Origin: a virus
Virus record (IMG/VR): IMGVR_UViG_3300020472_000007
Location: 1-35,875 of that record
Direction: 5' to 3' (one strand)
DNA: 35,875 nucleotides
In this document: in pieces, positions 31,072 through 34,307 of the stretch
How positions within the stretch are numbered: position 1 is the stretch's first letter
Layout: each line of letters starts with the position of its first letter
Made by a program: the position numbers and the translations under genes
The notes under the pieces: generated by a model
The model's input: only the letters and a program-made list of their open reading frames with translations
Database searches by the model: none
What the model was told of the DNA's origin: nothing

Positions 31072-31202
31072 CTCCCTTGCCCTCTATATTTTTTTTTAGC
31101 CATTCTCTTCTCTGACTTATTCATATTTTTTTTATGTCTGCCAATTTTTTTCTTTGTGGATTTGACATAGGTATTTACTCCCCACTTTGGTGCTTTACCC
31201 AT
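31068..31202 (-). CDS. Very basic small protein, 44 aa
   Basis: The ATG overlaps the phosphoesterase stop (TAATG) and the TGA overlaps the next ATG. The peptide contains GKAPKWGVNTYVK and a Lys/Arg-rich GRHKKNMNKSEKRMAKKKYRG tract in two parts, ending GQGR. About half the residues are basic, suggesting nucleic-acid or ribosome contact. The family was not named. Confidence 0.65.
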   Translation of the reverse strand: MGKAPKWGVNTYVKSTKKKIGRHKKNMNKSEKRMAKKKYRGQGR

Positions 31203-31921
31203 TAGTATAGTTTGCCATCCCAATTACCTTTATGATCCATAACCATTGGGAGTAGCTTGGGTTGTCCATCTATTATAATACCAACTCCACAAATAAATCT
31301 TAATCTAAATGTGCGTGAATAATTAAAAGCCATATGAGATTGTGAGGCCAGGCAGCCTACTTGCATAGACCAGATTAAACTATCCGGATTAGAAAAATAT
31401 TGTATGTTGAACTTACTATGGAAATGGCCCTGGGTTACACACTTGCCATATTGCATTGCAAGTTTCAATCCATCTGCTGAAATTCCGTGAGTGAAAAAAC
31501 ATTCTTGTCCATTGCTCATCTTTAAGTTTAAATCTTCTACCCACTTCCATCCTTTTCCAACACCCAGGAACTCATTGTAATCTTTTAAATAAGCTCTTGG
31601 CATTCCGTGTCTTAAAGCTCTTCTATAAATTAATGATGAATGATTAGAATGTACGAGTGTCATTTGTGGAAACATCTTTTCTAATTCTCTTATGTACTCT
31701 TTAGCTTTATCTAATTCCATACCAGCAGATAAAAGATCTGGATCTGTATCGTGAAATGATAATGCGTGAGCATCCAATTCATCTCCTATATTAACTACAT
31801 AATCTATTGAATATTTTTTTTTGATTGCTCGTAAGAAATTAAAGGCATCCTTCTTATGATAAGGTAAATGTAAATCACTTATAACTAATATACACTTATA
31901 ATTTTTAGCCATAAAATTCAT
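31202..31921 (-). CDS. Metallophosphoesterase
   Basis: This 239-aa enzyme shows metal-binding motifs in order: SDLHLP (Asp16, His18), NIGDELD (Asp47), HSNHSS, FFTHG and TQGHFHSKF. This is the calcineurin-like fold; the third motif has Asn-His-Ser in place of the usual Asn-His-Glu/Asp. Possible substrates are nucleic acids, nucleotides or lipid/cell-wall phosphates. It is coupled to the amidase gene by a short overlap. The first in-frame ATG encodes MNFMAK; a start at MAKNYK (31912) is also plausible. Confidence 0.85.
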   Translation of the reverse strand: MNFMAKNYKCILVISDLHLPYHKKDAFNFLRAIKKKYSIDYVVNIGDELDAHALSFHDTDPDLLSAGMELDKAKEYIRELEKMFPQMTLVHSNHSSLIYRRALRHGMPRAYLKDYNEFLGVGKGWKWVEDLNLKMSNGQECFFTHGISADGLKLAMQYGKCVTQGHFHSKFNIQYFSNPDSLIWSMQVGCLASQSHMAFNYSRTFRLRFICGVGIIIDGQPKLLPMVMDHKGNWDGKLY

Positions 31922-32333
31922 CTCTGATCCATTGCTTTACATCAAAGCCTGGACAGTTGGGTTTCTTGGGCTCTGCATCAGAATGACCAATCACTTCTAC
32001 ATCTGGATACATTGTTTTAATTGTTTGTATCAGACTATGAAGAGTTAGATATTGATCTTCTGTAATGTTGTTTCCCCTCCCAACAAGACAAATTCCTAAA
32101 CTCTTTCCATTCATTCCAAGAGCTGCACAATGAGCACCTTGCATTTTGGTATCTCTACCATTTTCTAAAATTCCATTTCTTCTAATTACATAGTGGTACC
32201 CAATCGCATCCCAATTTCTCGGAGGATCTGTATGCCACTTATGTATTTCAGCAGCACCTATGTCCATCTCTGCTGGTGTATCAGCACAATGAACAACACA
32301 ATGTGTAGTAACTTTTCTCTCGATCATATACAA
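31905..32333 (-). CDS. N-acetylmuramoyl-L-alanine amidase (endolysin)
   Basis: This zinc amidase of the T7 lysozyme type has ligands His15 (CVVHCADTP), His117 (IGHSDAEP) and Cys127 (PNCPGF), plus GYHYVIRRNG and the GAHC region. At 142 aa it is near the size of T7 gp3.5 (151 aa). It cleaves the amide between muramic acid and the stem peptide. In T7 this enzyme also inhibits RNA polymerase, but no phage polymerase is seen here. The ATG at 32325-32327 follows a better ribosome site than the TTG at 32333. Confidence 0.93.
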   Translation of the reverse strand: MYMIERKVTTHCVVHCADTPAEMDIGAAEIHKWHTDPPRNWDAIGYHYVIRRNGILENGRDTKMQGAHCAALGMNGKSLGICLVGRGNNITEDQYLTLHSLIQTIKTMYPDVEVIGHSDAEPKKPNCPGFDVKQWIRDEFYG

Positions 32334-32386: not shown

Positions 32387-32602
32387 TTATTCTAATATTA
32401 AAGAGGTTATTTTTTTCTCCCCCATATAGATCTCTATATTAGCCTTTGATTTAATACATTTAAAAATAACTCTATCCTCTGGTCGTTTATCCCTCATCGC
32501 AATTCTTTTTCCTTTAAGGCAAGTGCTTAAATTTGGCTGTATTCGATGTTCCTTTATTTCGTGATCCACTATCATTAAAAGTGCTATTACTGTTTCTATC
32601 AT
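32387..32602 (-). CDS. Small protein with hydrophobic N terminus
   Basis: Residues 1-13 of this 71-aa protein (MIETVIALLMIVD) are hydrophobic. The remainder has two Cys and beta-like segments (LSTCLKGKRIAMRD, DRVIFKCIKSKANIEIYMG). This could be an exported or signal-anchored protein. It lies between the membrane coiled-coil gene and the amidase in the lysis region. The family is not known to me. The 53 bases after it hold no clear gene or consensus promoter. Confidence 0.6.
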   Translation of the reverse strand: MIETVIALLMIVDHEIKEHRIQPNLSTCLKGKRIAMRDKRPEDRVIFKCIKSKANIEIYMGEKKITSLILE

Positions 32603-33003
32603 TCGTAACCTTTTTTGCCATTAGCTCTAACTTTATCTTTTAATTTTTCAATATCATTCAGAGCTTTCTCTAATTGTTTTGTTAAAAATTCGATGTTCAC
32701 TTTATTGTGCATTCCACTTTCTAATTGTTCATCGTGTTTTTCTAATTGACCAGCCATATGTTCTATTAACATAAACTGTTCGCTGTCTGCTGGTAACGAA
32801 CCTAACTCTCCTCTTGGCCATTTAATTCTAAACTCTGTATTCTTTTCAACATCAACTATCATTAGCTTACCATTCGTTTCAATATTATTTAATCTTTCAA
32901 TGATACCAAAGTAGGCCCATAGTCCAGCACAAGCTCCAGCTATTAGAGCTATGATTGTTTTAATATCTGTAGAGATAGATGTCTTTTGTGTAATAGGTTT
33001 CAT
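32599..33003 (-). CDS. Membrane-anchored coiled-coil protein
   Basis: This 134-aa protein has a cytoplasmic polar start, one transmembrane helix at about 16-35 (TIIALIAGACAGLWAYFGII), then NTEFRIKWPRGELGSLPADS and a C-terminal coiled coil (LTKQLEKALNDIEKLKDKV). The shape suits an inner-membrane protein with a periplasmic rod, resembling i-spanin-like design. No partner was proven. It is part of the holin-amidase cluster. Confidence 0.6.
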   Translation of the reverse strand: MKPITQKTSISTDIKTIIALIAGACAGLWAYFGIIERLNNIETNGKLMIVDVEKNTEFRIKWPRGELGSLPADSEQFMLIEHMAGQLEKHDEQLESGMHNKVNIEFLTKQLEKALNDIEKLKDKVRANGKKGYE

Positions 33004-33090: not shown

Positions 33091-33348
33091 TTAATTATAA
33101 CTATACCCACTTGGAGTATCACCTTTTTCTAAAATTTTAAATAGATTTTTATGCTGCTGCATAATCTCCTCATCTTTATCCATCATAGTAGCCATCTTAT
33201 CCTGTAGTTTTTCTACTTGTCTTTCTAATTTCTGAACCTTATCTACTTGCACAGCCTGGTTAGTTGATAAAGAAAATGTTTGTGTTAATACCCATCCACT
33301 TACAGCTAACATCACACCAATTAAAAGAGTTATAATTTTATCCATCAT
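33091..33348 (-). CDS. Membrane-anchored coiled-coil protein, i-spanin-like
   Basis: This 85-aa protein has an N-terminal transmembrane helix (IITLLIGVMLAVSGWVL) followed by a coiled coil (VDKVQKLERQVEKLQDKMATM). It is next to a small lipoprotein, a combination resembling an i-spanin/o-spanin pair that joins inner and outer membranes at lysis. The assignment is from topology and neighbours only. Confidence 0.55.
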   Translation of the reverse strand: MMDKIITLLIGVMLAVSGWVLTQTFSLSTNQAVQVDKVQKLERQVEKLQDKMATMMDKDEEIMQQHKNLFKILEKGDTPSGYSYN

Positions 33349-33349
33349 A

Positions 33350-33544
33350 TCACTTACACTTTTCTTTTCCCCATTTCCAAGTTTGGGTTATTGATTTTTT
33401 TTCCTGTGTTTTATTTTTGTTATCATTATCTGCATCAACATCTGTTGTTCCATAAGTAACAGAAGTTTTATCTGGACACATACTTGAATTACATCCAACT
33501 AAAAATAGGAATGTTAAAAATAATATGCTCTTCACTTCAGCCAT
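33350..33544 (-). CDS. Small lipoprotein, o-spanin-like candidate
   Basis: This 64-aa protein has a signal sequence ending in the lipobox LVGC (Cys18): SILFLTFLFLVGC. The remaining stretch is polar (Asp/Asn/Lys/Thr-rich). The GTG five codons on (VKSILF) is an alternative start. A short lipoprotein next to membrane-anchored coiled-coil proteins suggests the outer-membrane half of a spanin. Confidence 0.65.
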   Translation of the reverse strand: MAEVKSILFLTFLFLVGCNSSMCPDKTSVTYGTTDVDADNDNKNKTQEKKSITQTWKWGKEKCK

Positions 33545-33740
33545 CCTTTTTCTTCTTCTTTATTTTTTTCATTTGTTTTTTAATAAAGTTAGTGTTGCGT
33601 TTTATTTGTTCAGATAAAACAACTTGGCCCTGTTGCAACTTAATAATATCACCAGACATATTGTAAGTAGTTTTTAAATTCCAAGACATCAAGCCAATTA
33701 AAACACTAGCGAGTATTCCTATTATAATTTTACTGTCCAT
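33537..33740 (-). CDS. Membrane-anchored short coiled-coil protein
   Basis: This 67-aa protein has a transmembrane helix at about 5-20 (IIIGILASVLIGLMSW), a helical middle (DIIKLQQGQVVLSEQIKRNT) and a poly-lysine end (KKQMKKIKKKKKDG). The start is coupled to the stop of the Cys-rich gene. It could be an alternative i-spanin or pinholin-like factor. Confidence 0.6.
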   Translation of the reverse strand: MDSKIIIGILASVLIGLMSWNLKTTYNMSGDIIKLQQGQVVLSEQIKRNTNFIKKQMKKIKKKKKDG

Positions 33741-33892
33741 TACTTTCCTTCATAAGTTAAATCCTCTGCTTTAGTAGTAGAGCAATTACAATGATCACAA
33801 GTACAGGGATCCCCATCCCAATGATGATTGTGTAAATCTCCATCGCAATGACACTCACATCCACAACTTCCACATTCTTTTTTTTTAGCCAT
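33740..33892 (-). CDS. Cys/His-rich mini protein, 50 aa, likely metal-binding
   Basis: The frame runs from ATG 33890-33892 to a TAA overlapping the next ATG (TAATG). Nine Cys occur at 7, 10, 12, 14, 16, 30, 32, 35 and 37, with His at 15, 21, 23, 24 and 34: CxxCxCxCHC, HNHHWDGD, then CTCDHCNC. This density exceeds a simple zinc finger and recalls metallothionein or a multi-metal knuckle. There is no signal peptide. It sits between the holin and membrane proteins of the lysis region. Metal binding is inferred from the pattern; the role is unknown. Confidence 0.75.
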   Translation of the reverse strand: MAKKKECGSCGCECHCDGDLHNHHWDGDPCTCDHCNCSTTKAEDLTYEGK

Positions 33893-33893
33893 A

Positions 33894-34307
33894 TTATTTT
33901 TTATCGTTAATCTTTTTTAATTTATCAAATGATCTTGCTCCTGTCATTCCAAGTAATGCAAATAAAACTGTCATTAATGTAGAGCTGTCAAGAGTAGGCA
34001 GATCTATTGTTGTACCTCTCAAAGCACAGATCCAATTAGTAATAGGTATTACTAGGAACTGAAACATAAAAGCAAAGACACATACCCAGGCAAGAGTAGG
34101 CCTCCACAATCTTTGTATCCAGGATAGTGGGCCTGTTGCTTGAGCATCTGCTCTATTTATTTTAGCTTGTTCTTTATCTACATCTACTAATGCTTTTAAT
34201 AATTCTTTTTCAAGATTAGCTTTCTGCTCTGTTATCTTGTTTTTATCTGGAACAAGATCAATAGCTTTATTTAATAATGGTAACAGTTTTGTTATTCCGG
34301 CAATCAT
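33894..34307 (-). CDS. 3TM-type holin
   Basis: This 137-aa protein has an amphipathic N-terminal helix (MIAGITKLLPLLNKAIDLVP), a charged helix and QATGPLSWIQRLWRPTLAWV, which is the hallmark of GTA_holin_3TM family proteins. Hydrophobic helices follow (FAFMFQFLVIPITNWI; LMTVLFALLGMTGARSFDK). It would form inner-membrane holes to release endolysin. It lies upstream of the small membrane genes and the amidase in the late unit. Confidence 0.85.
   Translation of the reverse strand: MIAGITKLLPLLNKAIDLVPDKNKITEQKANLEKELLKALVDVDKEQAKINRADAQATGPLSWIQRLWRPTLAWVCVFAFMFQFLVIPITNWICALRGTTIDLPTLDSSTLMTVLFALLGMTGARSFDKLKKINDKK

Follow-up and report, generated by a model that had tools for sequence, protein, structure and literature searches.

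The 35,875-nucleotide viral stretch analysed here (hereafter the window) encodes, in its lysis region, a 50-residue Cys/His-rich mini-protein, called PEP below, which belongs to an undescribed family of marine-phage proteins. We infer most firmly, from the sequences, that PEP would bind metal as a reduced cytoplasmic protein. Our preferred reading, to which we give a probability of about one half, is that it is a metal-folded cytoplasmic metallothionein-like protein, made late with the lysis proteins and binding or buffering zinc. The genes of the window that are concerned are the following:

33894-34307, minus strand: holin (profile match to GTA_holin_3TM / phrog_3427)
33740-33892, minus strand: PEP, 50-residue Cys/His mini-protein, with a putative metal core at residues 7-37 followed by the motif KAEDLTYE
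33537-33740, minus strand: 67-residue i-spanin-like protein with an N-terminal transmembrane (TM) segment and a basic coiled coil (weak match to the Rz-like phrog_739, E 0.014)
33350-33544, minus strand: 64-residue lipoprotein (lipobox LVGC), a putative o-spanin whose gene overlaps the i-spanin-like gene
33091-33348, minus strand: TM85, 85-residue TM and coiled-coil protein (weak Rz-like spanin matches)
32599-33003, minus strand: TM134, 134-residue TM and coiled-coil protein (profile match to phrog_20984)
32387-32602, minus strand: P71, 71-residue protein paired with TM134 (phrog_24646)
31905-32333, minus strand: endolysin, a zinc amidase (profile match to Amidase_2)
31202-31921, minus strand: metallophosphoesterase (profile match to phrog_221 / Metallophos)

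The translation of the window copy is MAKKKECGSCGCECHCDGDLHNHHWDGDPCTCDHCNCSTTKAEDLTYEGK. Its nine cysteines (C7, C10, C12, C14, C16, C30, C32, C35 and C37) and five histidines all fall inside residues 7-37, and in 200 shuffles of the window (first-order Markov) the ATG open reading frames of at least 40 residues never had as many as 9 Cys and 5 His within 31 residues (maximum of Cys plus His 10, versus 14 in PEP). A sequence-only reading had singled out this frame, placing it beside the holin and coupling it to a membrane protein, and these points are borne out: the PEP ATG lies 1 nt past the stop of the holin gene, and the PEP stop overlaps the start of the 67-residue TM/coiled-coil gene as TAATG, with GAAGGAAAG before it, which makes translational coupling plausible on both sides. 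The nucleotide changes among relatives are mostly at third codon positions, no broken frame was seen among the relatives compared, and against the sister group dN is 0.13-0.16 and dS 0.45-0.54. These observations indicate that the frame is coding and that the gene, compared with its relatives, is under purifying selection. PEP has no TM segment (highest 19-residue hydropathy -0.63; net charge -5) and no signal peptide, and is predicted to be a soluble, acidic, cytoplasmic protein. AlphaFold2 run without metal, on PEP alone and with 62 sequences, gave no confident fold (pLDDT 50-56), as would be expected for a metal-folded peptide, although this is not proof of one.

The family was collected by three scans (alignment-based, with the peptide of phage Gjalp, and with the C-terminal motif only) and, over the loci examined, comprises 98 or more distinct proteins, with members of 32-66 residues. 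Direct relatives of the window PEP occur at the same site in six other contigs; a tblastn search of phages with the window PEP itself gave no match, and the sequence of a relative was needed as query. Three cultured SAR11 phages carry the gene (HTVC041P, Gjalp and Eyrgjafa). A scan of 84,980 prokaryote species genomes with the core pattern returned a single carrier, a Pelagibacter single-cell assembly in which PEP sits in a phage-like stretch with tail genes and terminase, and which is also the only carrier among 297 SAR11-order genomes. None of these 297 genomes has a PF02069 metallothionein, a positive control being included. The family has no significant profile match in Pfam, NCBIfam, PHROGs or PADLOC (the best PHROG score, E 0.05, concerns one member), a PDB profile search gave chance matches only (E >= 0.29), and we found no description of it in the literature.

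All members share a core of the form C-x2-C-x-[C/H]-x-C-H-C, a His-bearing loop, then C-x-C-x2-C-x-C. Among 58-62 diverse members, the invariant or near-invariant columns are ligand positions only, whereas the spacers between them vary in sequence and length; the Cys and His residues are thus kept in relatives next to holins, where the earlier reading had proposed to look for them, and the ligand set is the sole invariant feature of the family. Since the alignment-based wide scan required C or H at position 12, the restriction seen there was circular, and it was re-tested with tail-only and other patterns. The core was present in 116 of 119 proteins fished by the C-terminal tail alone. The 98 distinct tail-fished members keep C7, C10, C14, H15, C16, C32, C35 and C37, and have at position 12 Cys (43 members), His (40) or Lys (15). 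The loop His and C30 are missing in all 15 members with K12 and in none of the 83 others (one loop being masked by X). In this K12 subfamily, a compact form 'CKKCNKMCHCPNAEGECTNCDC', the ligands at position 12, the loop His and C30 have thus been lost together, as if one metal site had been dropped. Indeed, exchange restricted to C and H in full cores, combined with the loss of a three-ligand block, is what a metal site predicts; eight ligands could make two sites and eleven could make three sites with a bridging Cys. The smallest members (32 residues, e.g. MKTCKNCHHKCHCDGDLHADEYGLCTCEECKC) are a bare core with 8 Cys and 4 His, and short peptides of 33-36 residues, encoded beside holins that are 36% identical to the holin of the window, have the same first half (MKICIKCQCACHC..., MIKCEKCGCACHC...). 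One locus (L085:3992-4315) encodes a 108-residue member with two tandem Cys/His cores, the second of the reduced 8-ligand type.

Outside the core, many members carry D-x-[ST]-[YFW]-E (KAEDLTYE in the window PEP) and many end in V[VI]DDTxECESCQ (tail sequence: VIDDTGECESCQ). The VIDDTxECESCQ ending is lost in the window PEP and its closest relatives and kept in the sister contigs L015 and L016. An RNA-level constraint from overlap with the start of the next gene was rejected as the cause of tail conservation; third codon positions vary freely and the serines use AGN as well as TCN codons, so that the conservation of the tail is one of protein and not of DNA. The tail and the loop DGDLHADEYG are conserved within subgroups, and this points to the binding of a partner rather than to buffering alone. 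The V[VI]DDTxECESCQ ending (L214-L331) was also found on proteins with a quite different Cys head (L222, L231), and so is a separable module.

Seven arrangements were seen around PEP, in which it recurs with differing holins and endolysins:

A (window): holin, PEP, spanin-like pair and TM85, TM134, P71, amidase
B: phrog_3704, PEP, then TM85 or a spanin-like pair or MNYY, TM134, P71, with an M15 endolysin in some
C: TM134, P71, PEP, phrog_2524 holin-like protein, amidase
D: terminase, PEP, pesticin-type or other lysozyme
E: TM134, P71, PEP, terminase
F: distant holin, short PEP
G (T7-like pelagiphages): phrog_2524, a spanin-like pair in KM23-C739, PEP, capsid

Hosts of groups A, B, D and F may be other than SAR11. 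For 43 distinct members the flanks extend over 1.5 kb or more on each side, and in 27 of these a cassette gene was recognised by profile within 3 kb, a count that leaves aside the T7-like group and is a lower bound, the IMG/VR contigs being fragments. Among the T7-like members inspected, most have phrog_2524 a few hundred bases upstream of PEP and no other recognised lysis gene nearby, and PEP members of the MNYY group lie away from recognised lysis genes. The proposal of a dense metal-binding protein in the lysis region is well supported by sequence, the ligand set being conserved and PEP recurring, mostly within lysis cassettes, in several phage groups that are unrelated to one another.

Several neighbours deserve a description of their own. 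Judging from the gene layout, the overlapping 67- and 64-residue genes (33350-33740, minus strand) look like an unannotated i-spanin/o-spanin pair, and the same pair stands behind PEP in further phages, those of L025 and L013 among them. A TM85 homologue is found directly behind PEP in many other phages. TM134 is the most frequent partner of PEP after phrog_3704, and many marine phages have TM134 and P71 as a conserved pair close to the holin, the endolysin or PEP; this pair is probably lysis-related. The phrog_2524 proteins (L201:2876-3271, L011:2942-3304, L012:2731-3096) have two hydrophobic segments in a holin-like layout and adjoin PEP in two unrelated phage groups, which makes them holin candidates. 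At L018:3266-3913 and about 80 other loci, the gene before PEP encodes a 216-residue protein that matches phrog_3704, a profile labelled 'ferredoxin'; this protein has few cysteines and no ferredoxin motif, so the name seems doubtful and the idea of a ferredoxin partner was dropped. Directly upstream of PEP, at L052:3763-4002, lies another Cys-rich protein (MELCLECNHLCHC...), whose C-terminus is basic and hydrophobic. The short frame behind the holin of phage C72C1, considered as a further Cys protein, was rejected as a TM peptide.

PEP is not a fixed part of these cassettes. In close relatives of the window, with holins 84-88% identical, PEP is absent and the gene next to the holin is TM134 or a different one; in Methylophilales phages, which have a related holin, it is that of an M15 endolysin. 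On this comparison the gene is accessory and, judged by the relatives with 84-88% identical holins, dispensable for lysis.

According to the preferred zinc-binding reading, the 30-residue core would fold only around metal, most likely as a multinuclear zinc cluster of three Zn in the full 11-ligand core and two in the 8-ligand subfamily. The protein would be produced late, alongside the lysis proteins, and would bind or buffer zinc in a host group without a metallothionein of its own; in long forms, the conserved C-terminal CxxC may pass metal on or touch a partner. Counting against this reading are the tail and loop motifs kept within subgroups, the cassettes with a non-zinc lysozyme, the near relatives without PEP and the members away from lysis genes. 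The main rival to zinc buffering or hand-over is lysis timing: PEP would be a microdomain, stabilised by zinc, that attaches from the cytoplasm to membrane proteins of the holin or spanin type and so acts in effect like an antiholin, the metal being structural only. We consider this tentative and clearly the less probable. The overlap, in several groups, of its start or stop with the gene of a holin, an i-spanin-like protein or a TM protein, the attachment to lysis cassettes whatever the endolysin chemistry, and the protein-level conservation of the VIDDTxECESCQ motif speak for it, but the adjacent holin types are unrelated (phrog_3427, phrog_2524), no surface residue other than the ligands is invariant, the gene is missing in near relatives and the 32-residue minimal form has no tail. 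A variant in which the multi-zinc core reads free zinc or redox and gates the adjacent holin/spanin machinery through the tail or head seems improbable; if true, it would tie lysis of SAR11-type hosts to metal status.

The suggestion that PEP protects the zinc amidase specifically is weakened, and such a role is unlikely, as PEP also comes before lysozymes working without zinc. More generally, a supply or protection of zinc for adjacent phage enzymes (Amidase_2, Peptidase_M15, metallophosphoesterase) would suit the zinc endolysins present in the cassettes of groups A (window), B (M15) and C (amidase), but PEP also stands directly before pesticin-type and other lysozymes, and Methylophilales phages keep the same order of holin, M15 and phosphodiesterase without it, so that we hold this explanation to be unlikely. 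Slightly less likely still is an unrelated host-takeover or accessory gene (e.g. an inhibitor of a host protein, with metal as scaffold) that by chance sits in an insertion hot spot of small late genes close to the lysis region. Presence/absence polymorphism and varied neighbours, including capsid and MNYY proteins, are in its favour, whereas at least six architectures link PEP to TM134/P71, spanin-like or holin genes, and the 27 of 43 members counted above lie near a cassette gene.

PEP represents a widespread phage family whose metal-ligand signature is very strong. It sits in the lysis modules of marine phages, about which little is known, and may offer a handle on trace-metal management by phages of metal-poor ocean bacteria, or on lysis set by metal. 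The survey also brings out putative spanin pairs and, as two conserved proteins linked to lysis, phrog_20984 and phrog_24646.

Among known systems, PEP resembles bacterial metallothioneins (PF02069, SmtA/BmtA) in its tiny size, its content of about 20-35% Cys plus His, its CxCxxCxC motif, its similar ligand count (nine Cys/His at Cys positions plus two His), its predicted cytoplasmic location and a conservation confined mainly to ligands. The SmtA cluster is Zn4Cys9His2. However, homology was rejected: none of 58 PEP members matches the PF02069 HMM at E<=1, hhalign against three metallothioneins gave 1.6% probability with only CxCxxCxC aligned, and ligand order and spacing differ, the metallothionein order CxCxxCxC ... 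YCxxxCxxxH ... CxHxxCxC being absent from PEP, which has CHC and C-x2-C-x-[CH]-x-C at its N-terminus and no YCxxxCxxxH block. The earlier label metallothionein-like therefore stands as an analogy, outside the PF02069 family. With phage structural zinc fingers and zinc ribbons, PEP shares CxxC pairs and a short length; unlike them, it packs 11 ligands into some 31 residues, too many for a single 4-ligand site, keeps eight when the three-ligand block is lost, and matches no Pfam, NCBIfam or PHROGs profile. Finally, it shares with antiholins and spanins the genomic position and the overlap of its start or stop with genes of holins or spanin-type proteins; unlike these, it lacks a TM segment or signal peptide and is soluble, acidic and rich in metal ligands.
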